In this document: piece after piece, positions 2,877 to 24,205 of the stretch
Layout: each line of letters opens with the position of its first letter
How positions within the stretch are numbered: position 1 is the first letter of the stretch
Made by a program: the position numbers and the translations under genes
Notes under the pieces: generated by a model
Seen by the model: only the letters and a program-made list of their open reading frames with translations
Databases searched by the model: none
What the model was told of the DNA's origin: nothing
Virus record (IMG/VR): IMGVR_UViG_3300032073_000241
Location: 1 to 24,205 of that record
DNA length: 24,205 bases
Strand: one strand, 5' to 3'
Source: a virus

Positions 2877-4202
2877 TTATAACACTAAGTCTTTACTAAA
2901 TTTAAACTTAACTGGGTGCTTTTTATTATTTTCTAATATCTGCTGGATTTCCTGTAAAGTTTCTTTTCCATCTTCTTTAGAAAAGTCAAAAAGTATTGCA
3001 TCGTAAGTATAAAGTGCAACTTTTGTTCTTTTCTTTTGTAAATACTTTAGTACTTCTTTTAATATAAGAATATTATTTGAAGTTTCCAACGATTGCATCA
3101 TATAATTCATCAACTTAGCTGGATGCATGTCTTTTAACTCTTTTGTAAAGGGTTTTCCTGATTGTGGATTACATATGAATCCTTCATCGTTAAAACTACT
3201 CCACATTGCATCTATATATTCCTGTATTTCTTTAAATATCTTTAAATCCCTATGTTCTTCCGGTATTTTACCGTATATTGCATGAAAATTAATTTGTTTT
3301 GCTTGTTTATACTGCTCATCTGTTATATCATCAGTGCCGAAGTAATGCTTGGCGAGTTGTTTATGAGCTGATTCGTCAGTAAGTGTGTAATCAATTTGGT
3401 TGCAAAGTAAGCGCAGGTGATACCCGTCAAAATCAAACTCAACAAAGTAATCGTTTTGCGGCTTGAAGGTTTTTCTATGCCCCTCCGTGTGAGGAATAGC
3501 AGCGAAATTAACACTATTAAAAGAATTAGTGGGTCTAGATGTAGCATTGTATAGATTATATGATGTTAATATTACGTTATTATGTATGTTATAACGTGGC
3601 TCTCTTGGATTAAACTTTTTTATAAAATCATCATAATCAATACCTAATCCTTGTTGTTCTAACAAATAAAATACTGATGTAGCTGTGTTATTATAAAAGT
3701 CGAATCCTGATGGTTGTTTTATTTTAATATGTTCTTTTAATTTTTCATATAGTTCTTCAGAAGATTCGTATAATTTAGAAATAGGAATTAATTGATTTAT
3801 ATTATTATGTGTTCTAAATCTATTATAAAAGTAGTTTAACTTACTATTTAATCTTTCATACTCTAATCTTTGAAAGTACGTCATGGAGTACATTAACGAT
3901 ATATCTATTGCATCCGGTAAACTAAAATGGTAGAGCAATTCTTTCTTATCTAATGTATATAGTTTACTAGCTGCTTTTAATATTGAATAGACACGTTTTT
4001 TATCTACGTCTACTCCTTCATCATGATTTATTGGAATAATAAAGCCATGGTAACTATTTAATAGTCTAATATATACTGCGGTAGTGGTTGTAAGTTTAGG
4101 ATGAAAGTTATAATCAGAAGGTATTATTTGTACATAACAACCTAATTTTACTAAACTTTCTAAATGATTTAACTTATTTTCTTCTTCTACTATATAAAAC
4201 AT
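2877..4202 (-). CDS. Short family A (Pol I-type) DNA polymerase
   Basis: The C-terminal half of this 441-residue protein carries the family A palm and fingers. ATSRPTNSFNSVNFAAIP (220-237) matches the TGR-SS-PNLQNIP region. Motif A is EFDFDGYHLRLL with Asp257. Motif B is KQINFHAIYGK with Lys302, Phe306, Tyr310 and Gly311. Motif C is LYTYDAILFDF with Asp401. Both catalytic aspartates are present. Three usual residues differ: the motif A Glu (E. coli Glu710) is His262, and the motif C His-Asp-Glu reads Tyr-Asp-Ala. The protein is far shorter than Pol I and I see no 3'-5' exonuclease motifs in residues 1-200. It probably copies the phage genome together with the gp32-like protein, UvsX and the exonuclease nearby. 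T4 itself uses a family B polymerase. A weak Shine-Dalgarno (AAAGG, 8 nt spacing) precedes the ATG, unusual in this window. Confidence 0.82.
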   Translation of the reverse strand: MFYIVEEENKLNHLESLVKLGCYVQIIPSDYNFHPKLTTTTAVYIRLLNSYHGFIIPINHDEGVDVDKKRVYSILKAASKLYTLDKKELLYHFSLPDAIDISLMYSMTYFQRLEYERLNSKLNYFYNRFRTHNNINQLIPISKLYESSEELYEKLKEHIKIKQPSGFDFYNNTATSVFYLLEQQGLGIDYDDFIKKFNPREPRYNIHNNVILTSYNLYNATSRPTNSFNSVNFAAIPHTEGHRKTFKPQNDYFVEFDFDGYHLRLLCNQIDYTLTDESAHKQLAKHYFGTDDITDEQYKQAKQINFHAIYGKIPEEHRDLKIFKEIQEYIDAMWSSFNDEGFICNPQSGKPFTKELKDMHPAKLMNYMMQSLETSNNILILKEVLKYLQKKRTKVALYTYDAILFDFSKEDGKETLQEIQQILENNKKHPVKFKFSKDLVL

Positions 4203-10353: not shown

Positions 10354-12690
10354 TTATGTTGTTGTTGCTGTTAATCTTTGTACTTCCCCTATTCTAAATC
10401 CATCTAGGTTAATATCTTGACCTGAAGTTCTTTCGACTGTGCTAATTAATTGTTCTAATAATGATTCAACATTACCTCCTAATTTAGTACCTCCTGCCAT
10501 AGTAATAGTATCTGCTGGATTTGTGCTTAAAGTAAAGTCATCTACATTTATAGAAGCAGAACCACCTTCTAGTCCCGTAACTCCAGTAGCATCCCCAGCC
10601 ATTAAAGCTGCGTCAATACCCATGGAAATACCTGTTCCTATACCGGGGAATAAAGAAGCTACACCGGAACCAATTTCTCCTAATGCACCTAATATATCTC
10701 CTGACATTGCTCTTTTTACTGCTAATCCAACTCCTACTATTAAACCGATAATAGGTATTTTTTTCAATAATGATTTACCTGCTGCTTTTCCAGCACCTTT
10801 ACCAATAGTTTTTAAGAAGCCTGATATTTTTTTCAAAAAACTTAAACCTTTCATTGGTAGTGCTACTAAAGGTTTAAAAGACATTTTAATTAAATTACCA
10901 ACAGTCTTTAATTTACTACTCATTTTAGTGATAAAACCTAAAGTTTCTCCTGCTGCTGATGCTATCACGCCAAAGAATCCAGTTATAGGTTCTAACGCTA
11001 TAGCTAAATCTCCAACTGCTTCTGCCATTTTTTCCATAGCTTCTTTTTGAGCTTCTGCTACAGATTTATTTTCTAATTGTCGTACTAATTCGTCATTTCC
11101 GGCTTGTTGACGAAGTTTTGCTAGTGCTTTTTCTTTAGCTTCGCCTTCTGCCATAGCATTAATACGTTTAAACTCATTCCTAACTTTTGCATCTAAGGTG
11201 TCTCCTTCTACACTGGAAAGTTCTGCCATTGCTTTTTGTTTCATAAGCATTTCAGACATCTCTTCTCGAGACATTCCCATGGCTTTAGCAACTGCTGTCT
11301 GTTGAATACGATTCATACTACCAAATTTCGCAGCTGTAATTCCTTGTTTGGCTAACTCTTGAGCCATTCCTACCATATCATTTCTTAATGCTGCCATTCT
11401 AGCTCCATCTAGGTTTAATTGTTGACCTGTTAAAAGCTCTGCTTCCATTTCAGCTCCTATAGAACTTTCATAATCTAGTAAATTTGCAGCGACACCTTCC
11501 ATTGTTGCAAAGGATAAACCTAATCTTCTTGCTTGAAATGCTGCTTGTGCTAATCCTCCAGGCATATTTGCAGTAGATAGCTGAACTGATGCTGAAGCGT
11601 TTGCAATATCTTTCATTACATCTTGATACCTAATAGCTGTACCGTTAACACTATTCTGTAACATAACTCTACCAATAAGGTCATCATTGAATTCTTTCAT
11701 ATCTTGACCTGTACCTGCTGTAACTGTTGCTAATCTAGTTGCTTCTTCTGATGTTAGACCTAATTTCTTAGTCATAGCACCTATAGTAACTAAAGTATCA
11801 TCGGATAAATCAGCTGTAATTCCTAAACCATCGGCAATACCTGCATAAGCTTCTCTAAACTGTGTGCTTGTTAATCCTTTAGTGTTAGCACTTAATGATC
11901 TAAATCTTTTATCTAAACCTCTTGCTTCTTCTCTAGTTATGTTTAAATTTCTAGCTAGGTCTGTTACATCTTGATTGGTTTTGAAAATACCTTTCATAAA
12001 GGTACCTACTGCGAAAAGCATTCCCATTTTACCTGCTGCACCTGCGAGTTGGGAAGCTCCTGCGAATAGTGCATCTCCTCCTTCTACTCCTGCTTTTCTT
12101 GCTGCTTCAGCTCCTGATTTAAATTCGCCAAATAGTTTACCTACTACTGGTATGTCTCCTACTAAATCAGACATACTATCAAAGAATTTAGTATCGTTAT
12201 TTAGTTCATCATTAACATCTTCTATTGCTTCAAAGGTACTTAAAAGTCTCTCTGCTTCATATTGAGCACTAGATAACCCTTCAACTGTTTTCATTATCTG
12301 CTTTGCTTCTTCTTCACCAGCATGTGCAGCTTTTTCTATTAAAACAGCCATTTTAGATTCTATAGCTTGAATCTGACCTTTTACAATTTTTTGTTTTTTA
12401 AGAAATTTTTCAGTATCTTTCTGGGAGGCTAATCCATCTTTGGTAAATTGAGCTATGTCAGCAGACATTTTAGATACTGAAGATACTAATTGTCCAGCTC
12501 CCTGTATTTCTGATTTAAAATCTTTAGATCCTTTGGCAATATTTTTTAAGTGATTCGATATGCTACCTAAATTCATTCCGGCTTCAGTAGCTTCTTTAGA
12601 GAATGCTTTAATATTCTCAGCCATTTCAGAAGTCGCTTTTGATGCTTCTTGTGCGTTTTTAGGATCTATATTTGGGGTCTCTTCGGCCAT
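10354..12690 (-). CDS. Tape measure protein
   Basis: The 778-residue protein has the usual tape-measure make-up. Residues 1-190 are long polar, Ala/Lys/Glu-rich helices (probable coiled coil). A central part contains Leu/Ala-rich helices such as LARNLNITREEARGLDKRF. A late hydrophobic, Gly-rich region (about 650-740, e.g. IPIIGLIVGVGLAVKRAM) could insert in or cross a membrane on ejection. It should set tail length and be packed inside the tail tube; by the common rule of about 0.15 nm per residue the tail would be near 115 nm. It directly follows the chaperone pair, as in most long-tailed phages. The ATG is 17 nt after a TATTTATA box that adjoins a terminator. Identification rests on size, composition and position. 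Confidence 0.87.
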   Translation of the reverse strand: MAEETPNIDPKNAQEASKATSEMAENIKAFSKEATEAGMNLGSISNHLKNIAKGSKDFKSEIQGAGQLVSSVSKMSADIAQFTKDGLASQKDTEKFLKKQKIVKGQIQAIESKMAVLIEKAAHAGEEEAKQIMKTVEGLSSAQYEAERLLSTFEAIEDVNDELNNDTKFFDSMSDLVGDIPVVGKLFGEFKSGAEAARKAGVEGGDALFAGASQLAGAAGKMGMLFAVGTFMKGIFKTNQDVTDLARNLNITREEARGLDKRFRSLSANTKGLTSTQFREAYAGIADGLGITADLSDDTLVTIGAMTKKLGLTSEEATRLATVTAGTGQDMKEFNDDLIGRVMLQNSVNGTAIRYQDVMKDIANASASVQLSTANMPGGLAQAAFQARRLGLSFATMEGVAANLLDYESSIGAEMEAELLTGQQLNLDGARMAALRNDMVGMAQELAKQGITAAKFGSMNRIQQTAVAKAMGMSREEMSEMLMKQKAMAELSSVEGDTLDAKVRNEFKRINAMAEGEAKEKALAKLRQQAGNDELVRQLENKSVAEAQKEAMEKMAEAVGDLAIALEPITGFFGVIASAAGETLGFITKMSSKLKTVGNLIKMSFKPLVALPMKGLSFLKKISGFLKTIGKGAGKAAGKSLLKKIPIIGLIVGVGLAVKRAMSGDILGALGEIGSGVASLFPGIGTGISMGIDAALMAGDATGVTGLEGGSASINVDDFTLSTNPADTITMAGGTKLGGNVESLLEQLISTVERTSGQDINLDGFRIGEVQRLTATTT

Positions 12691-12717: not shown

Positions 12718-12744
12718 AAAGGCTCCTATTTGTTAGAAGCCTTT
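12718..12744 (-). terminator. Hairpin terminator at the end of the chaperone pair
   Basis: On the minus strand AAAGGCTTCT and AGGAGCCTTT pair over ten positions with one G-U wobble and a 7-nt loop, followed by TTTACTATTTAT. The hairpin contains the last codons and TAG stop of the 102-residue frame. The one wobble is a C-A mismatch in plus-strand RNA, which favours minus-strand function. The U-tract is short, so termination may be partial. Confidence 0.65.
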
Positions 12745-13034
12745 GTACGATAAGTAGGTTTTATTTTAGGCTTTGCTACAGTACGTTTTTTTCGCTGGTT
12801 GTAGTGTTTTTCGTTTTCTTTATTTTCCTTATCGTAAAACTCTTTCATTTTCTGGAAAGTAAACTTTCTAAGCCATATAGGCATATTGTAAACCTCAGAC
12901 CATGTGTATCCACCTTTGCCGTGGAAAACGATTTCATGTATTGCAGTAAAAATACGTAACCTATCTGCCGGTGTCAGGCCAAAAAAAGCTGAGCCCAATG
13001 GGTAAATCGACGTCCTCCTCAACGCCGTCTTCAT
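12726..13034 (-). CDS. Second reading frame of the tail-assembly chaperone locus (gp51-like position)
   Basis: The 102-residue frame overlaps the end of the gp26-like gene by 74 nt in the +1 frame. Residues from Phe17 onward look like a real domain: FFGLTPADRLRIFTAIHEI, then GKGGYTWSEVYNMPIWLRKF, followed by a Lys/Arg-rich helix. Residues 1-16 (MKTALRRTSIYPLGSA) read as mere out-of-frame translation of its neighbour, and no Shine-Dalgarno precedes the ATG. The more likely product is a fusion made by frameshifting at the TTTTTTT run: 243 residues of the gp26-like protein plus 84 from this frame (327 in total). Such pairs directly upstream of the tape measure gene are tail-assembly chaperones (lambda G/GT, P2 E/E'). 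Independent initiation at this ATG remains possible. Confidence 0.72.
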   Translation of the reverse strand: MKTALRRTSIYPLGSAFFGLTPADRLRIFTAIHEIVFHGKGGYTWSEVYNMPIWLRKFTFQKMKEFYDKENKENEKHYNQRKKRTVAKPKIKPTYRTKASNK

Positions 13035-13710
13035 CAGTATATTTAAATGTCATATTAACATTTGGTTGTATTCTATTGTATTCTGCCCTTAAAGCTCTTG
13101 AATCTGATGCTAAAAAGTACTTATCAACAAATTCTCTAATATCTTTTTTCTCTGTAAGTCCATTAATAGAAGTAATAATATATTTCATTCTTGTTGAAAC
13201 TTCAGGAGAAGAATTTTTATTTATTTTCTTTAAACCTGCTATTTCTCTTTCTATATTTTTTTCATCTCCATGTGTAAGCAGTTTAAAAGTAACTTTATTA
13301 CCCGTAGAGGGTAATTCAAATTCAAAATTATTAGTTCCACCGTCATAGTTACTCTCATCAATTTCAATATTTTTCAATTCAGTTAAGTCTACTGTAAATT
13401 CTTCTCCAGCATATCTTATTTTATAATCTTTACCGTAAGATAATATTCTAGCTGCAATCATAATTGCATTTTTATCACCGATAAGAATTTGATTATAATC
13501 TAAATCTTTATTTACTATTAATGATTTTAACAGTTTATCAATAACTGTACCGTTCTTAATGTAGTTTTGATTAGTTAGAAGGTCTTCTTCTTTTGCTGTC
13601 ATATATTTCATCTCTAATTTTCCTGTTGCAAGGGGAGAATCAGCAGAATAAAGTAGTCCTTTTGAAGGTAATTCTATTTCTTCAGTTGGTATTGTGAACT
13701 TTGGTTCCAT
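12961..13710 (-). CDS. gp26-like baseplate-hub / tail-assembly chaperone protein
   Basis: The 249-residue protein begins IPTEEIELPSKGLLYSAD and continues LEMKYMTAKEEDLLTNQNYI, a pattern I associate with the T4 gp26 family (usual length about 200-250). It ends LPIGLSFFWPDTGR, with the FFWP close to the stop. In T4, gp26 is assigned to baseplate hub assembly. In this genome it lies between tail tube and tape measure and is overlapped by a second frame, exactly where tail-assembly chaperones are encoded in other tailed phages, so I favour a chaperone that coats the tape measure protein. It follows a strong terminator and a TATTTATA box 30 nt before the ATG. No Shine-Dalgarno is present. Confidence 0.75.
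   Translation of the reverse strand: MEPKFTIPTEEIELPSKGLLYSADSPLATGKLEMKYMTAKEEDLLTNQNYIKNGTVIDKLLKSLIVNKDLDYNQILIGDKNAIMIAARILSYGKDYKIRYAGEEFTVDLTELKNIEIDESNYDGGTNNFEFELPSTGNKVTFKLLTHGDEKNIEREIAGLKKINKNSSPEVSTRMKYIITSINGLTEKKDIREFVDKYFLASDSRALRAEYNRIQPNVNMTFKYTDEDGVEEDVDLPIGLSFFWPDTGR
12981..12987 (-). other. Candidate +1 (or -2) programmed frameshift site in the chaperone genes
   Basis: The coding strand reads AGC TTT TTT TGG in the gp26-like frame (Ser-Phe-Phe-Trp). Seven consecutive T allow the Phe tRNA on the second TTT to slip +1, or -2, onto an identical codon, entering the other frame at GGC CTG ACA (Gly-Leu-Thr). The normal frame ends six codons later at TAG. The 74-nt overlap has about 53% G+C by my hand count (39 of 74), clearly above its surroundings, as expected for sequence constrained in two frames. 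Confidence 0.6.
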
Positions 13711-13823: not shown

Positions 13824-14309
13824 TTAGTAGTTTAATACACAGTAGTCCATTGCAACAGTAATTGCTACTTCTACTGGTTCATCAGATGTCCAATCGTACT
13901 GTCCGAAATCTCCATTAGTTAGTATTGCTCCTTTGATGATCCATTCACCTACAATGTCACCAACAGGTCCTAAAATATTTAGAGTTAAATCTTTTTTGTA
14001 GAAATCTGAATAACCTGCTCTACCAGTTACTGATTCGTATCCTAATCTAGCCCATTCCATAACAGCTTGAGCACCAGATGGAGTTACTGGATCATATAGA
14101 GTCATTGTTATATCTTCCCACTCTCTTTTTCCTCTAATTTTTCTATAAGAGTTAACGTGATCTAATTTTATAATGTTATCAGTGAAAGTAGGTGCTTTAA
14201 CATTCTTTACCATAAATGAAGGAATGTTTTCAACATACATTACAAATCTGTTTTGTACCTTTGGTTCAAAGGCCTTAAACATAAGTTCGCTTGGATCTAA
14301 TACTGCCAT
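13824..14309 (-). CDS. 19: Tail tube protein (gp19-like)
   Basis: The 161-residue protein matches T4 gp19 in length (163) and pattern. It has the N-terminal FEPKVQNRFVMYVENIPSFM, then VKAPTFTDNIIKLDHVNSYR, and IRGKREWEDITMTLYDPV, ending with the beta strands VEVAITVAMDYCVLNY. Stacked hexamers form the inner tube through which DNA and tape measure protein pass. It sits 41 nt after the sheath gene, the conserved gp18-gp19 order, and has its own TATTTATA box 16 nt before the ATG. A terminator follows it, consistent with a sheath/tube unit made in large amount. No Shine-Dalgarno is present; the leader is AATAAAATAAATAAAAC. Confidence 0.93.
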   Translation of the reverse strand: MAVLDPSELMFKAFEPKVQNRFVMYVENIPSFMVKNVKAPTFTDNIIKLDHVNSYRKIRGKREWEDITMTLYDPVTPSGAQAVMEWARLGYESVTGRAGYSDFYKKDLTLNILGPVGDIVGEWIIKGAILTNGDFGQYDWTSDEPVEVAITVAMDYCVLNY

Positions 14310-17002: not shown

Positions 17003-17497
17003 TTATTTTACTGTTTTTAATAAACCGTCTTCAAATGTCCATGTTTCTTTACCAACTGTTTTGCTTCCTTCAAAACCACTAACTGAAGCATTACTACCAG
17101 CAGGTCCTGTAGCTCCTGTTGCTCCAGTAGCTCCTTGAGGTCCAGTAGGTCCTTGTGGACCTGTATTACCAGTATCACCTTTTGCCCCTTTTGAAGATGC
17201 TGCTGATGAATCTGTTCCAAATGCAGCTTTTACGTAAGCATGTAATTTAGCTATTTCAGCTCTCAAATCTTCTATTTGTTTAAAATAGAATTTAGATCTT
17301 AGAAACTCTGCTTCATCATTTATTAATATAGAAGGATCTGTTGCTGCATCAATAGCGGATTTTGTAGTAGAATCCATTACTAATGCTCCATTACTAAGTT
17401 GTGCTTTTTCTCCTTTAGAAGCCATATCAGATAATTCTGAAGTAGATGCTGCTTTTGTTAATTCTTTTTTTCCAAATGTACTATCTATTGTTGCCAT
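17003..17497 (-). CDS. Collagen-like tail/fibre-associated protein
   Basis: The 164-residue protein has a polar N-terminus, a helical segment (FYFKQIEDLRAEIAKLHAYV, about 71-90) and then ten Gly-x-y triplets at residues 104-134 (GAKGDTGNTGPQGPTGPQ and GATGATGATGPAG). A small C-terminal domain follows (KTVGKETWTFEDGLLKTVK). Short collagen-like stretches in phage fibres form trimeric rods; the helix before it may serve as a trimerisation coiled coil. It starts 10 nt after the giant fibre's stop codon, so both are likely made together and may occupy the same appendage. The C-terminal ETWTFEDGLLKTV pattern could be a trimer cap. Attachment to the fibre is an inference. Confidence 0.82.
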   Translation of the reverse strand: MATIDSTFGKKELTKAASTSELSDMASKGEKAQLSNGALVMDSTTKSAIDAATDPSILINDEAEFLRSKFYFKQIEDLRAEIAKLHAYVKAAFGTDSSAASSKGAKGDTGNTGPQGPTGPQGATGATGATGPAGSNASVSGFEGSKTVGKETWTFEDGLLKTVK

Positions 17498-17507
17498 TTT
17501 ATTTAGT

Positions 17508-20500
17508 TTAATTAAATTGGAATACTGCTACTGCATTCCAGTTAGTTGTTGTAGATGAAGAACAGTTTATACCGAATACTATTGCATTATCGTCTCCTAA
17601 TGCACTACCGTTCATATTTAAACCTAAGTTTAAAGGCACCCAAGTATTTCTATTTGCTGTAACGCTAAAAGAGGTGCTTGTCATTTGAGAATAACTAGTT
17701 GGATTATCTGCGTCATATATTCTTAATGTATTATTAGATCTAGAAGCATTAGCCTGGATGGACATTCCTACTAGTTTACCTGGTTTAGGTATTACATATC
17801 TTTGGTTATAACTTACATTACCAGTTAAAAATCCACTATATAAAGATAAATACCTTGTAGAAGTAGTGTTAGTAAAGAATGCAAATTGATGCATAGCTCT
17901 AGTAGCAGCCATATAAGAACTTATAGTATTACCAGCTGTCATAGGTAAGCTAGCGCTCCAATCAGCATCTTCGTAATAAGTTATTTGCGTAGTATCAGTA
18001 GAGTCAAGATTATTTTCATATGATAATGAATCTTCAAATAGATGAACTATTCCGTAAGTAGTTTTCTTTTTAATATATAACCTTACATCAGATGCAGATA
18101 TTACTTTTAAAATAAAACTGTCTTCTTCTAACATTTCAGCATTAGAAGTAGCATCACTTGCTCCAAAATCGGATACATTTCCATCAATATCAAGTATAGT
18201 TAAAGATGCTACTTGTAAGGTACTTGAAGATGTGCCTTTACGTAGTTTAATCATTATACGTGCATAACATCCAACGCCTGAGGTTTCTTCTGCAGATATC
18301 GTATACACGGCACATAAATCTGTATTATTTGCATCGTCTATATCAAATTTTGCTAATAATGCATAATACCCTGATTCTCCTGCTGCAGGTGATGCTGACC
18401 ATGCAATAGGTTTTCTTCTAATAGCTGTATGAGTTATTCCACCTACAATGTCTAGTCTTGGAGTAATTCCTGTTGTAACTGCAGGTGCAGTTGTTCCGAT
18501 ACCGACATTACCTGAAGAATCAACGCGTAATCTTTCTGATCCTCCTAAAACAATATTAAATGTATCACCGCCAGGGAATCCAAAATAAGAATGAGTATCT
18601 CCATTATGTAGTATACGATCGTTAATAATTGGTCGAGCAGATCCGTCAACTAAGAAACTACCACCGTAGGTACCAGCCCCATTGTAGGCCTGTACTTCTA
18701 AGCAACCAGAAGCGCCGGATGTGTTTACTTGTAATTGAAAAGCGTTGTAACCACTATTGTGAATTGCACCATTAGATGTGTTTCTATTGAAACCTAATCT
18801 TCCACCTGCTGTATCTTGAAGATATATAGTATCCATATTAATTATAGTACCGCCAACACTTATATTACCTGCAAAAGTTGCATCTTGAGAAGAATCTATT
18901 GTAAGAGCGGTTGTACCAGCAGTGTTAATAATAAATGTATCATTACCGCTAAATCCAAAAAGTGTATCAGGATCTCCACTGTGAGCAAGATATTCTGGGA
19001 AATATACTCTACTGCCAAATTCCGCTGTACCACCATCTGACATATCTAATGTTAGAGCAGTTATAGCAGAACTACCATCTTTACCATTGAAAATAATATC
19101 ACCATCACTTTGATTATTTTGAATAATAAGTTGTCCAAGTTCGTTTGTTATTAGGCCGTTGGTGGTGTCGTGATATATATTTAAATCATCATCATTACCA
19201 AATGATATCGCTTTATTGTCTGCCAACTTAAAATTACCTGAAGATGATACGTGTCCACTTGTATCTAAAGTTAAAACTGCAGTTGTTGAAGTACCATTTG
19301 ATCTATAGAACGTATGTGAACCGTATGCAGTACCTTTTCTTGAAACATAAGTAGTATTACCACCATTATGGCCTCTATCACCGTAGTGATTTGTACCATC
19401 TGCATCTCTAACTCTAATATCTGGAGCACCTGTTCCTACAACTTCAAGATTTACAGTTGGTGTGGTTGTTCCTATACCAACTTTACCACTACTACTAACT
19501 GTCATCATAGTAACAGAAGCAGACATGAAATTAGTTGCATCTTGAGCATGAATATCTAACATACCATTGTGGTGTGTGCCTAAATAAACTTTATCTGTAT
19601 CTCCTAATCCTTGTAAGTATAAGTAATTAGCAGCTCCTGCTGATCCTATTGCAACATGTTGTGCTGAAATGCTTGATGTATTATGTACTGTAAGTTGTCC
19701 TGATATATCAGCGTTACTGTTTACATCTAAAGGTCCTGAAAATATAGATGTATTACTATTACTAGCATCTATTTGTAAAGCTGTACCAGCGTTTGTAACA
19801 AGTTTTAAATCATAATTATTACTACCACCTAAACCTGATACTAAGTCTAAAGAGTATTGAGCCGCAACTCTACCCTCACCTGAACCAGCGCCACCTCTTA
19901 AATATAAGGCTTGATCTGTATTAGACGCTCTTCTTACAGTTAACGCACCAGCATCGTCATCTGTAATTGTTACTTTACCATCAAGAGCACTAACTCCGTT
20001 TATGTCTAGAGTTGAAGCTTCTACTTCTCCTGCAAATTGTGCTACGGTATTTGTTATATTTAATCTTTCACTTCCAGCGACATAAATTTTAAGATTACTA
20101 TCTGATTCTTCTTCTATATATGTATGACCACCAATACCATCTAATAATAACTTTCTACCTGCTGGTATTGCAAAATTAGTTGATCCTAATACAGCTACAT
20201 CAGAACTTACCATAAATCTAGCACTTCCATTACCGTATATATGAACAGGGTAAGAAGGATCTGCTGTTCCTATACCTATTCTAGAACCTGTAACTACAAG
20301 TGTGTTAGCTCCAAAGGTACCCATTGTAACAGCATCATTAGATTCTACCTCTAAGATAGGGATACCTGAGATATCACTAACAGCAAATAAAGATCCAGAT
20401 AGAGAATCTGTTACAGAGAATAATTGACCTTGTGATCCTTCTACTGATAGTATTGTACTACCTGATCCTTCTATTAAAGCTACATCATTTGTACCGGATA

Positions 20501-23500
20501 CATGTAATTTTGCTGATGGTGCTGTAATACCTACTCCTACTCTTTCAGTACTGAAATTAATGTTTAACACATTAGCAGTATCATCTCTGAATCTTAATTC
20601 TTGAGTTCCATCTTCTAGAGTTATATATGCATTTGTAACTCCTGAGTCTTGAAATTGTATTTCAGCATCACCTGAAGATGGTGATATCATTATTCCTCCT
20701 CCAGAACCTCCTACTCCTCCAACATGTAGTGTTTTACTTGGACTAGTTACTCCTCCTAACCCGGCTTTACCTGCTACAGCTAAAGACGTTCCAGTATTTG
20801 CTGGATCTAATAGGTAAGAAGAATTTGAAGAATCATAAAATGCTGCTGCAAACATACTATAACCTGAGCCTGCATGTACATTTCTATTAAAGTAAGCAGT
20901 ACCGTTTTGGGAAGCAGAAATTATTAATCCGTTATATTCACTACCACCTGTTTTGAACTTAATTGTTATGTTTTTATCGTTAGAAGTATTTCTTAATATA
21001 GTATGTCCACTTGAATTAGATAATCTACCAAATTCTGTACCACTACTTCCTTTTAGTACTATATCTTCTCCGCCTGCTTGTAATCTTAAATCATCTACAG
21101 CAGCAATGGTAAAATCACCATTACCACTTTCTGTTAAAGTAGTTGCATTTGTTCCATCGCCTGAAATGCTTATTTGTCCGTTTGATATTATTACGCTACC
21201 AGAATTGTGAACAGAATTACTTCCAGAAAATGTTACTACACCTGATTTATGTATATTCACTAGAGAAGAAGTAATATACTCTGCTTGGCCGGTGGCTGAA
21301 TATCCTATTTGGAAATTAGCAGCACCACCGCTATATCTCATACCGCTAAACCACTCATTATTATTATAAGATGTATCTAAATAAAAATGTCCTACACCTC
21401 TTCCTTCATAACCTGTCATTATAACTTGAACTGCGTTTGCAGGGGATCCAGCTGTATTAGTTGCTGTCAGGTTAAGTGTAGTTGTAGTTGCATTAGAAGT
21501 ACCAAAAGAAAAAGTTTGTCCAAAAAATTCCGCGTCTTTATTACTATCTATTATTAAAGCTGTTGATCCGCCTCCGTTTGTTGCAAATCTTAAATCATTA
21601 TTTGAACTAGCCCATATTCTAGATCTTTCTCCTGATACATCTTTGAAAAATAAGTAAGCATTTTCTGCATCTGATGAGACTGTTTGTAATCCACTCCATC
21701 CTCCTGAAGAACGTGCTATAATACTTGTATTACCAGAACCTGTAGCTATAATACTACCTCCTGCTACTGTAAACTTTTCTACAGGTACTTGTGTACCTAT
21801 ACCAACCGTTCCAGAAGCTGAGATCCATAATCTTACTGCTGAACTAGTATCATTATCTCCGGTTCTAAATTCATAGTTATTATGAACCGAACCAGATCTT
21901 CCTGACATAAACCCTAATGTATTACCAGCATATGCACTGTTAACACCTAAGTAAATTCTTGCTTCATCACCTGCTGACCCTGCAGCTCCTTCTAAAAAGA
22001 AACCATTAGAACTTCCTGAGGTTTTAATTATGCCTCTTACTTCTAAATTTCCTTGTCCTGGTGCATCTATTGTTCCGATAGAGACTTTACCTCCATATGA
22101 TTGTAAAGATAAAATACCTGAGTTACCACCGCCTGATGTTGTCTGTATTTGATATTTACCAGAAGAATCATATCTTCTAATATACATTCCATCAGTTCCA
22201 TCATTTACAATAGAAATAGGTTTATTAGTAGTTGCTCCAACATTTAATGTCATAAATGCACTTCCTCCTACTGTACTTGCAGAACCGGTATTAAACAAGT
22301 AATTGTTAGTTCTAAAATGACCGTATTGAGTACCTGAACCATTTCTAAAGTATTGTCCAGCACCTGCATCTAAATATAGAGCATTACCGGGAGATTTTAC
22401 CTGTACATAACTTGCATCACCTTGTAAAAATAAATGATTGCTACCACGTACATTAGATCCATCTTGAATATATAGATTATTAGCTGTAGAACCTGATTGA
22501 AGTATATTTCCTCCATGTACGTGTAATGCTGTATCACTACCATGAGGTGTTTCTGTTCCAATACCTACTTTAGAAGAAGATATTACCATAACACCTTGAG
22601 TATTATGAGAACCTAATCTCAATCTTGCATCTGCTCTTGAATATATAGATGCAAATCCTGAAGACCATGTTAGAGTTCCGTATACTGTATTATAACCTCC
22701 CCAGTGAGAAACTGCACTAGTAGTAGTCCAAAATCCATTTGATATAAATGGTGCTGCTGCTACAGAAAGATTTCCTGTAGAATCTGGTGTTGCAGTTGTA
22801 GTTCCAAATTTCCAACTATCTTCACTTTCATCCCAAATTAATGCTGCATTATTACCTGTACTGCCTCTTTCTACTATAATACCTGAATCATTTGCATTAG
22901 ATGAGGCACCTCTATTTAAACCTATGATATTATCTGATAAATCTAAATTAGTAGAATTAACTGTTGTAGTAGTTCCGGTTACTTCTAAATTACCTGTTAT
23001 TGTTACATTACCTGTAAAGGAAGATGATTGGTTACTATCTAATACAAGTATATTAGTCATAGTACCTGCTTGATCAGTAGCAAATTCTATTCTACTAGGA
23101 TAATCGTTTGAATCCCAAGTACCATCTGCTTTAAATTTTATTTGTGCACCATTTTCGTATCCAGAAGGATCATTACCTCTAGCTACTATCGCACCAAGAT
23201 TATTTCCATTTGAAGTAGTAGAATCGTCTCTATCGAATTGAATCTCTGGTGGGTTATTGCCGGTAGTACGGTTTCTTAAGTTAAGAGTATTGTAATGATA
23301 AGTTCTAGATGCATTTACTGATAATCTTGTGCTTCCGCTAATCTCTACTGCAAAGGCTTTACCTCCATTTTGATTTTCGTCAACTGATACATAAAATGTA
23401 GAATTACCTTGACGTAAGTGTGTAAGCATTGCAGTTGATGCACTACTACCACTAGCTTTTTCTATCTGTATACCCGTACTGGTACCAGAACCTGTAATTT

Positions 23501-24205
23501 TTAAGATATTACTTGCAGTACCTGTAATAGTAACTGCATTAGGTATATCTGCAGATGAGAAATTAAATCCGTTACCAGAAGTACCTGTTGTTGCTTTCCA
23601 TACACCTCCATAATTTCTAAACTGCCCTGTTGTACCTGAATATACATTAGAGTTAGAGAATATACCGGCAGAACCTATCCAGGCTCTATCTCCATCTGCT
23701 GCTCTGAATTTTAAGTACTGGTTATTTTGGTCATAGTATATACCAGCATGGTTTGCTGTGGAATGGGAAGGGAATGCTATAGTAGGGCTTGCTGTGGATC
23801 CAGCAGAAGAAGGAAATATTGCTCTAGAACTGAATGTTAAGTTGCCTAAACTGTCTAACATTATAGACTTATTAGTATCTCCGCCGTATCTAATATATAA
23901 ATTGTTAGCGTAACTATCTATGAAGTTTCCACTATTTCCTCCAAATACTTCTATATATTTTGAAGCTGCAGATTGGTGTACTCTAATAGATCCTGATACG
24001 TCTAATCTAGATGCTGGAGTTCCTGGTCCTACACCTAAATTACCTCCATCTTCCATAAATACTATATCTCCTCCAGCTTTTGCATGAATTGGATATGAAG
24101 TTGCTGCAGCGTTATAAAGGTAAAAATCGTTATTAGTTTCTTTATAAAGTGTCCATTTAGTAGCTCCAGTGTCTCTATAGGATAAGTATGCTCCTGCTGT
24201 TCCAG
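17508..24205 (-). CDS. Giant tail fibre protein (partial, N-terminus off the right edge)
   Basis: The frame is open from the TAA at 17508 to the right edge, so at least 2,232 residues lie in the window. The ATG at 24056 is internal: the codons before it read on in frame (...YLSYRDTGATKWTLYK... then AGGDIVFMEDGGNLGVGPGT). The protein is Gly/Ser/Thr/Asn-rich beta-helical fibre material with nine VGIGT-xx-P...L-x-V-x-G motifs. It also has a TGNLEVTGTTTTVNSTNLDL block (encoded near 22970) and one FGNDDDLNIYHDTTNG block, both typical of marine phage fibres. The C-terminal 150 residues (YNQRYVIPKPGKLVGMSIQA to the end) look like a separate, possibly receptor-binding, beta domain. No endosialidase-type self-cleaving chaperone is seen. 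It should recognise the host surface. Confidence 0.88.
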   Translation of the reverse strand, partial: GTAGAYLSYRDTGATKWTLYKETNNDFYLYNAAATSYPIHAKAGGDIVFMEDGGNLGVGPGTPASRLDVSGSIRVHQSAASKYIEVFGGNSGNFIDSYANNLYIRYGGDTNKSIMLDSLGNLTFSSRAIFPSSAGSTASPTIAFPSHSTANHAGIYYDQNNQYLKFRAADGDRAWIGSAGIFSNSNVYSGTTGQFRNYGGVWKATTGTSGNGFNFSSADIPNAVTITGTASNILKITGSGTSTGIQIEKASGSSASTAMLTHLRQGNSTFYVSVDENQNGGKAFAVEISGSTRLSVNASRTYHYNTLNLRNRTTGNNPPEIQFDRDDSTTSNGNNLGAIVARGNDPSGYENGAQIKFKADGTWDSNDYPSRIEFATDQAGTMTNILVLDSNQSSSFTGNVTITGNLEVTGTTTTVNSTNLDLSDNIIGLNRGASSNANDSGIIVERGSTGNNAALIWDESEDSWKFGTTTATPDSTGNLSVAAAPFISNGFWTTTSAVSHWGGYNTVYGTLTWSSGFASIYSRADARLRLGSHNTQGVMVISSSKVGIGTETPHGSDTALHVHGGNILQSGSTANNLYIQDGSNVRGSNHLFLQGDASYVQVKSPGNALYLDAGAGQYFRNGSGTQYGHFRTNNYLFNTGSASTVGGSAFMTLNVGATTNKPISIVNDGTDGMYIRRYDSSGKYQIQTTSGGGNSGILSLQSYGGKVSIGTIDAPGQGNLEVRGIIKTSGSSNGFFLEGAAGSAGDEARIYLGVNSAYAGNTLGFMSGRSGSVHNNYEFRTGDNDTSSAVRLWISASGTVGIGTQVPVEKFTVAGGSIIATGSGNTSIIARSSGGWSGLQTVSSDAENAYLFFKDVSGERSRIWASSNNDLRFATNGGGSTALIIDSNKDAEFFGQTFSFGTSNATTTTLNLTATNTAGSPANAVQVIMTGYEGRGVGHFYLDTSYNNNEWFSGMRYSGGAANFQIGYSATGQAEYITSSLVNIHKSGVVTFSGSNSVHNSGSVIISNGQISISGDGTNATTLTESGNGDFTIAAVDDLRLQAGGEDIVLKGSSGTEFGRLSNSSGHTILRNTSNDKNITIKFKTGGSEYNGLIISASQNGTAYFNRNVHAGSGYSMFAAAFYDSSNSSYLLDPANTGTSLAVAGKAGLGGVTSPSKTLHVGGVGGSGGGIMISPSSGDAEIQFQDSGVTNAYITLEDGTQELRFRDDTANVLNINFSTERVGVGITAPSAKLHVSGTNDVALIEGSGSTILSVEGSQGQLFSVTDSLSGSLFAVSDISGIPILEVESNDAVTMGTFGANTLVVTGSRIGIGTADPSYPVHIYGNGSARFMVSSDVAVLGSTNFAIPAGRKLLLDGIGGHTYIEEESDSNLKIYVAGSERLNITNTVAQFAGEVEASTLDINGVSALDGKVTITDDDAGALTVRRASNTDQALYLRGGAGSGEGRVAAQYSLDLVSGLGGSNNYDLKLVTNAGTALQIDASNSNTSIFSGPLDVNSNADISGQLTVHNTSSISAQHVAIGSAGAANYLYLQGLGDTDKVYLGTHHNGMLDIHAQDATNFMSASVTMMTVSSSGKVGIGTTTPTVNLEVVGTGAPDIRVRDADGTNHYGDRGHNGGNTTYVSRKGTAYGSHTFYRSNGTSTTAVLTLDTSGHVSSSGNFKLADNKAISFGNDDDLNIYHDTTNGLITNELGQLIIQNNQSDGDIIFNGKDGSSAITALTLDMSDGGTAEFGSRVYFPEYLAHSGDPDTLFGFSGNDTFIINTAGTTALTIDSSQDATFAGNISVGGTIINMDTIYLQDTAGGRLGFNRNTSNGAIHNSGYNAFQLQVNTSGASGCLEVQAYNGAGTYGGSFLVDGSARPIINDRILHNGDTHSYFGFPGGDTFNIVLGGSERLRVDSSGNVGIGTTAPAVTTGITPRLDIVGGITHTAIRRKPIAWSASPAAGESGYYALLAKFDIDDANNTDLCAVYTISAEETSGVGCYARIMIKLRKGTSSSTLQVASLTILDIDGNVSDFGASDATSNAEMLEEDSFILKVISASDVRLYIKKKTTYGIVHLFEDSLSYENNLDSTDTTQITYYEDADWSASLPMTAGNTISSYMAATRAMHQFAFFTNTTSTRYLSLYSGFLTGNVSYNQRYVIPKPGKLVGMSIQANASRSNNTLRIYDADNPTSYSQMTSTSFSVTANRNTWVPLNLGLNMNGSALGDDNAIVFGINCSSSTTTNWNAVAVFQFN
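18439..24051 (-). repeat. Nine diverged VGIGT-type repeat motifs in the tail fibre
   Basis: Protein-level repeats of the form [VIA]G[IVL]G-x-x-x-P-x-x-x-L-x-V-x-G are encoded near 24051-23999, 22571-22513, 22091-22032, 21811-21755, 20771-20706, 20545-20492, 20287-20231, 19485-19428 and 18511-18439. Examples are VGIGTQVPVEKFTVAGG and VGVGITAPSAKLHVSG. Spacing is irregular (about 200 to 1,500 nt) and the DNA has diverged, so these are structural modules of the fibre shaft, not recent tandem duplications. Confidence 0.8.

Follow-up and report, generated by a model that had tools for sequence, protein, structure and literature searches.

Frameshifting in tail assembly chaperone (TAC) genes is a classic feature of long-tailed phages. 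In lambda, as in TAC-N/TAC-NC pairs generally, a gene lying between those for the tail tube and the tape measure protein yields gpG and, by a slip near the end of this first gene, a minor C-terminally extended form, gpGT. In T4, the two forms, gp26 and gp51, are encoded by separate genes on opposite strands. For T4-like phages, PMC12846349 describes poly-T -1 signals in TAC-N genes as known, citing Vladimirov et al. 2022. As far as its title and its citations convey, that work (Vladimirov, Gautam and Davidson 2022, Virology 566:9-15; cited in PMC10885494 and PMC12846349) identifies the TACs of T4-like phages, and the title suggests that they are made by a mechanism other than frameshifting. 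Natural +1 sites are found in release factor 2 genes, where CUU_U is used mostly and UUU_U in a few species (PMC5009743).

Here we analyse a locus on the minus strand of a 24,205-base IMG/VR virus fragment (the window), which very probably encodes a TAC pair of a T4-superfamily myovirus, TAC-N of 249 aa and TAC-NC of 327 aa, by programmed ribosomal frameshifting. As with the lambda gene, it is flanked by tail tube and tape measure genes, with a predicted minor extended form arising near the end of the first gene; in comparison with T4, one gene plus a frameshift would make both forms.

Layout of the locus and identity of its two domains

Gene 1 and a second ORF, which is +1 relative to it, share 74 nt (12961-13034), just as a preliminary description of the window had it (Table 1). 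On the minus strand, the 3' end of gene 1 reads CCC ATT GGG CTC AGC TTT TTT TGG CCT GAC ACC GGC AGA TAG. The G+C content of the overlap, put earlier at about 53%, was computed as 52.7% versus 33.7% for the window, where a 74-nt stretch is this G+C-rich in just 0.5% of cases. If one base is omitted at the site, the translation is the fusion of 327 residues foreseen in the same description, while a -2 shift would give 328. A tail tube gene and a sheath-like gene lie upstream of gene 1 and a long tape-measure-like gene downstream, so that the window holds the order tail tube, TAC, tape measure that marks a TAC pair. The Flavobacterium phage immuto has a matching annotated order, in which the syntenic gene is annotated as tail tape measure protein.

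Table 1 Features of the TAC locus in the window
Feature	Position	Strand	Basis or remark
Gene 1, TAC-N (short form, 249 aa, T4 gp26-like)	12961..13710	-	ORF, PHROGs, Pfam, AlphaFold2 model
Second ORF, 102 aa	12726-13034	-	ORF; +1 relative to gene 1
Slip site TTT TTT T (T7 run)	12981..12987	-	YTT YTT T invariant in 167 relatives
First Phe codon	12985-12987	-	Sequence
Second Phe codon	12982-12984	-	Sequence
TGG after the slip codons	12979-12981	-	Sequence
Codon before the run, AGC	12988..12990	-	Third base never T across the +1 lineage
Gene 1 stop TAG	12961..12963	-	6 codons past the second slip codon
+1-frame C-terminal extension (FFGLTPADR..., 85 codons + stop), TAC-NC-specific	12726..12983	-	Selection, profile matches, model
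TAC-NC, predicted frameshift product, 327 residues	12729..13710	-	Translation skipping one base at the site
GAGGAGG, purine element resembling a Shine-Dalgarno sequence, 26 nt 5' of the T run	13014..13020	-	Synonymous signal common to relatives
Tail tube protein, upstream neighbour	13824..14309	-	phrog_4542, E 1.9e-21
Tape-measure-like protein, 778 aa, downstream neighbour	10354..12690	-	Position, length, immuto synteny

Gene 1 matches phrog_150, 'baseplate hub', in PHROGs with an E-value of 4.5e-14, and it scores 32.1 bits against Pfam T4_baseplate (PF12322), above the cut-off of 24.5, which places it in the family of T4 gp26 and gp51. The PF12322 or gp26-type domain is present in both of these T4 proteins, and, judged from sequence, gp51 looks like a gp26-type protein carrying a C-terminal extension. 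We modelled gene 1 and the second domain as two separate parts rather than as the 327-residue fusion. The AlphaFold2 model of gene 1 (pLDDT 90) recovered just three PDB entries at Z of at least 2, with moderate values: YqbN (3klu; 5.5), which we take to be a TAC-type protein, the HK97 TAC (2ob9; 5.0), whose first-domain fold is similar to the model, and PLE ORF19 (3.8). These matches give gene 1 a TAC-type fold, although Foldseek alone returned an E-value of 0.46 for 2ob9. The last of the three entries, 5ir0 (ORF19 of a V. cholerae PICI-like element), bears a weak likeness to the gene 1 model over 76 residues, and this satellite-element protein may possibly be a chaperone mimic.

The second domain was compared at the profile level. 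With hhalign, the +1 domain aligned to the -1 domain of cyanophage homologues over 50 columns (E 7e-6), and the cyanophage domain aligned to residues 206-244 of T4 gp51 (E 3e-4), both being single-pair E-values of modest probability; hhalign of the +1 domain directly to the T4 gp51 sequence alone gave no useful match. In a blind scan of 38,880 PHROGs with 31 members, the most frequently matched families were 'tail assembly chaperone', for 9, and 'baseplate hub assembly catalyst', for 7, all weakly, the latter figure matching the seven members that hit phrog_634 (best E 0.0087). A PDB profile search with the second domain found nothing meaningful, and Foldseek of its all-helical model (pLDDT 80) against BFVD gave no significant match. 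On these weak scores, the second domain may be related in sequence to the C-terminal part of T4 gp51. The locus had been described as a gp26/gp51-like pair. The gp26 assignment of gene 1 stands by Pfam and profile, but gp51 does not fit as the small partner, since gp51 itself has a gp26-type domain; the second frame lacks a direct gp51 match and would correspond to the C-terminal part of gp51 alone.

Elsewhere in the window, a 441-aa ORF (2877-4202, minus strand) carries, by eye, a motif like the palm of family A DNA polymerases (FDGYHLRLL...) and adjoins UvsX-like and gp32-like ORFs, which is unusual for a T4-type gene set. A 164-aa ORF (17003-17497, minus strand) contains collagen-like GPQGPTGPQGATG repeats and adjoins a repetitive putative fibre protein of 2,182 aa (17508-24056, minus strand).

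Conservation of the slip site and selection on the second frame

Relatives were gathered from IMG/VR, GTDB contigs and isolate phages, and 167 loci with a +1 arrangement were examined. The two slip codons are TTT TTT in 156 of them, TTT CTT in 8 and CTT TTT in 3; immuto has the site TTT CTT TGG. They are followed by TGG in 164 loci (TAC in 2, TTC in 1), and CCT comes next in 165. All 167 have the gene 1 stop 3-10 codons past the second slip codon, as well as a second ORF, in the +1 frame, that extends 67-116 codons beyond the site. TTT TTT TGG and a +1 ORF are present even in Rhodothermus phage RM378, whose identity is 27%; its gp26 as a query in IMG/VR recovered just itself. Additionally, we scanned with the 15-mer TTTTTTTGGCCTGAC alone, and 118 of the 119 contigs found carried a gene 1 homologue, a set that partly overlaps with the 167 relatives. 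A narrower pattern with a fixed TA spacing was not specific and picked up an unrelated long ORF in seven contigs. Chance does not account for the site and the overlap: all 167 relatives share the site and its frame relation, and the motif alone retrieves the gene. The alignment proposed in the preliminary description has thus been borne out for the T run, the frame relation and the Phe-Phe junction alike. By sequence, the locus combines a shift-prone codon capable of +1 re-pairing with a conserved +1 ORF, as in programmed +1 frameshifting, and a C-terminal extension in another frame accessible near the end of gene 1, as in TAC pairs.

Homopolymers are error-prone in sequencing, and a run of six T's in place of seven would make a single in-frame gene, which had been named earlier as the observation that would overturn the frameshift. 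We rejected such a sequencing or assembly error, whose probability we regard as negligible: the run and the frame relation recur in well over 200 independent contigs and in the isolates immuto, Mel-JY01 and RM378, non-homopolymer variants are among them, and frame 0 always stops 3-10 codons later.

The base preceding the run is under a strong restriction. The third base of this codon is T in none of the 167 relatives and in none of the 118 loci of the motif-first set, while codon usage predicts a T-ending codon in 48.8 of 91. AAC occurs 54 times and AAT never, AGC 22 times and AGT never, GAC 14 times and GAT never, against background usages of 0.67 for AAT, 0.73 for AGT and 0.76 for GAT, and the tree implies at least 42 changes of this codon. 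A T at this position would create T_TTT_TTT, a heptamer for -1 tandem slippage. Similarly, the first Phe codon is never TTC, where 18.4 of 91 were expected, and it therefore appears to take part in the slip.

The second frame was next considered as a protein in its own right. Codons past the gene 1 stop show a pN/pS of 0.34 in the +1 frame versus 1.46 and 1.27 in the two alternative frames; for codons 10-32, which precede the usual first Met, the values are 0.27 versus 1.37 and 1.77. These ratios are indicative of purifying selection acting on the +1 frame once gene 1 has ended. Within the first 30 codons from Phe-Phe, 165 loci contain no +1-frame stop at all, while just upstream stops are frequent (at codon -2 in 25 loci, -4 in 27 and -8 in 33). 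The +1-frame sequence is conserved from Phe-Phe onward and not upstream of it, in agreement with the earlier view that the domain begins there and that what precedes it is noise.

These patterns bear on whether the second frame could be a separate gene with a start of its own, for example the ATG at 13034, and not be joined to gene 1. The window does have an ATG 17 codons before Phe-Phe, and 97 of the 167 relatives retain some start codon upstream of the site. In 70 of the 167, however, the +1 frame is free of ATG, GTG and TTG from its last stop up to the run, a stop sits two codons ahead of Phe-Phe in 25, and the first start codon downstream lies most often at codon 34. In L024, L034 and L063 the open stretch of the +1 frame starts about one codon or less from the run, which largely refutes an independent start, and a gene with its own start would need neither the T run, nor the frame phase, nor the missing T before the run. 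We consequently rejected a separate gene as very improbable; relatives with a conserved independent start, which had been named as a second ground for refutation, were not among the 167. Judged by its sequence context, the C-terminal extension would be reachable by frameshifting only.

For immuto, databases carry just the last 36 aa of the extension, as a 'hypothetical protein' (locus L001, 3916-4026), which is the end of the +1 ORF read from an internal Met; this misannotation is corrected here.

We also looked for stimulators. RNAalifold on the relatives gave no consensus pseudoknot or hairpin, RNA fold z-scores near the site were just slightly below those of controls, and a Shine-Dalgarno-like element at the 3-nt spacing of prfB was not found in the +1 loci. 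To our knowledge, not every +1 site needs a stimulator, a Shine-Dalgarno sequence or RNA structure being common and not obligatory. Further upstream, codons -11 and -10 are GAG 68 times versus GAA 9 times, at a background GAG usage of 0.21, and there is a peak of GGAG, GAGG or AGGA at -36 to -25 (54-55 of 91 loci), too far away for a ribosome at the slip site to be affected directly through its anti-Shine-Dalgarno sequence. G/C-ending codons are also in excess over the 40 nt leading up to the slip site, both in the window and in L003-L082, a signal at the synonymous level.

Direction of the shift and the cyanophage counterparts

We propose that most ribosomes would translate gene 1 to its stop, yielding TAC-N of 249 aa, while in a minority at AGC UUU UUU UGG the Phe-tRNA would re-pair one base further on. 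This re-pairing would be UUU to UUU, and in the variants UUU to UUC or, for a Leu-tRNA, CUU to UUU. The slip would occur while the next codon is decoded slowly, and the shifted ribosomes would go on in the +1 frame through GGC CUG AC to make TAC-NC of 327 aa with its extra helical domain. By analogy with lambda gpG/gpGT, TAC-N and TAC-NC may together coat the tape measure protein, with the extra domain recruiting the tail tube protein. We infer from these comparisons that ribosomes actually shift here, as well as the direction, the efficiency and the TAC function. The programmed frameshift put forward in the preliminary description is supported by the site, frame and selection evidence in the relatives; its wording of +1 or -2 is narrowed to a probable +1.

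The direction is probably +1. In a -2 shift at the same locus, which we regard as unlikely though worth weighing, the Phe-tRNA would move back two bases and the product would read SFFFGLT, with one extra Phe and 328 aa. Such a shift would re-pair perfectly on TTT TTT, would account for a first Phe codon that is never TTC, and would tolerate both TTT CTT and CTT TTT; phage Mu is also known to shift by -2 (PMC5009743). A simple +1 slip on the second codon would not explain the constraint on the first, which fits either +1 slippage at the first codon or -2 slippage at the second. Against -2, such shifts are rare, the TTT CTT and CTT TTT variants keep good +1 re-pairing as well, and in the sister lineage GXN1 (TTC TTT C) a -2 slip at the second codon would be mismatched while a +1 slip would be matched. 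On sequence grounds, +1 is favoured over -2. The predicted junction peptide of the window phage is ...IGLSFFGLTPADR for +1 and ...IGLSFFFGLTPADR for -2.

Alternatively, the polymerase might slip at the T7, giving mRNAs with an added or lost U from which the fusion would be translated in frame. Most loci have seven T's, and homopolymers can slip in RNA synthesis. Yet eight TTTCTTT and three CTTTTTT loci retain the same frame relation and downstream ORF, and these C's inside the run weaken transcriptional slippage as an explanation. Moreover, the better-slipping runs of 8 T's are avoided: none of the 167 loci has a T directly before the run, and just one locus (L256) lengthens it downstream. We judge transcriptional slippage highly improbable, and retain ribosomal frameshifting.

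The cyanophage homologues show a different arrangement. All 80 of the 80 IMG/VR loci have T_TTT_TTN and an ORF of 62-69 residues in the -1 frame, so these relatives appear, from sequence, to step back one base at the corresponding place. The gp26-like genes of the Kyanoviridae-like loci (L086, L174-L253) end in T_TTT_TT(C/G/A), and the group has a peak of Shine-Dalgarno-like GAGG/GGAG 13-18 nt upstream. S-SCSM1 (L085) retains this heptamer, yet its second ORF lies in the other frame. The SP-15/LIS04-like sister lineages also have a +1 ORF, with a less regular site: in L091, L092, L386 and L387 (Streptococcus GXN1, Listeria LIS04 and SP-15-like), the gp26-like gene is followed by a +1 ORF, and the site is TTY TTT (C/A)xx (A/C/G)CC (C/A)GA TTY, in which the slip codon is ambiguous.

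On the gene 1 tree, on which the long branches of T4, RM378 and Atu_ph07 are poorly placed, the +1 and -1 loci separate with one change of mode, counting those two states alone. With slightly more confidence than doubt, we suggest that a whole branch of the T4 superfamily uses +1 for the TAC gene while its cyanophage-side orthologues shift by -1. The frame of the second domain would then determine the direction, and a single base, the one ahead of the poly-U, would police it (T in every -1 case and in no +1 case), with neither RNA structure nor a Shine-Dalgarno sequence close by. As part of this suggestion, the +1 branch would span phages of Bacteroidota-type hosts, of Rhodothermus and of Microcystis and, by frame relation, those like Bacillus SP-15 and Listeria LIS04. 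The hosts of the +1 group are likely mainly Bacteroidetes-type bacteria.

Comparison with known systems

Bacteroidota rarely use Shine-Dalgarno sequences. F. johnsoniae has a low reported efficiency at the prfB +1 motif (PMC12421855). Because the likely hosts seldom use such sequences and F. johnsoniae shifts poorly at this motif, a strong +1 site from these phages would be a useful tool. By comparative evidence, hundreds of environmental T4-superfamily phages bear the less common +1 kind of shift while their cyanophage cousins bear -1, and the presence or absence of a T before the run offers a clean, testable rule for direction. If the +1/-1 branch reading is true, it amounts to a natural experiment on the switching of frameshift direction within one gene.

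TAC frameshifting, and +1 shifting in a few phages, are both already known, and it is a conserved +1 class in the T4 superfamily that looks undescribed; our search, which was thin on subscription papers, found no published report of one. The novelty suggested in the preliminary description stands to this extent, and falls for -1 poly-T sites, which PMC12846349 records in other T4-like TACs.

Compared with lambda, which shifts -1 at a site of its own, the locus here has a +1 second ORF and the site UUU YUU UGG. With T4 gp26 and gp51, gene 1 shares the PF12322 family. The Kyanoviridae gp26/gp51 genes are closer, with a homologous first gene, a related second domain and U-rich Phe codons just before the stop as here, but theirs is a -1 arrangement with an invariable T before the run and a Shine-Dalgarno-like element at the spacing given above, in contrast to +1 here. 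The site itself is most like CUU_UGA of prfB, in that a shift-prone YUU_U is followed by a slow codon, and the variant CUU UGG C is one base away from CUU UGA C. It differs from prfB in having the sense codon UGG in place of the stop UGA, in the absence of a Shine-Dalgarno sequence at the 3-nt spacing, and in the protein encoded. Listeria phages PSA, A118 and A500 shift +1 at CCC_UGA in a tail gene, a proline site in another gene, and the archaeal myovirus HSTV-2, compared here by description, likely has a +1 TAC (PMC5009743). Like the locus described here, these phages use +1 shifting for structural or tail genes of tailed phages.
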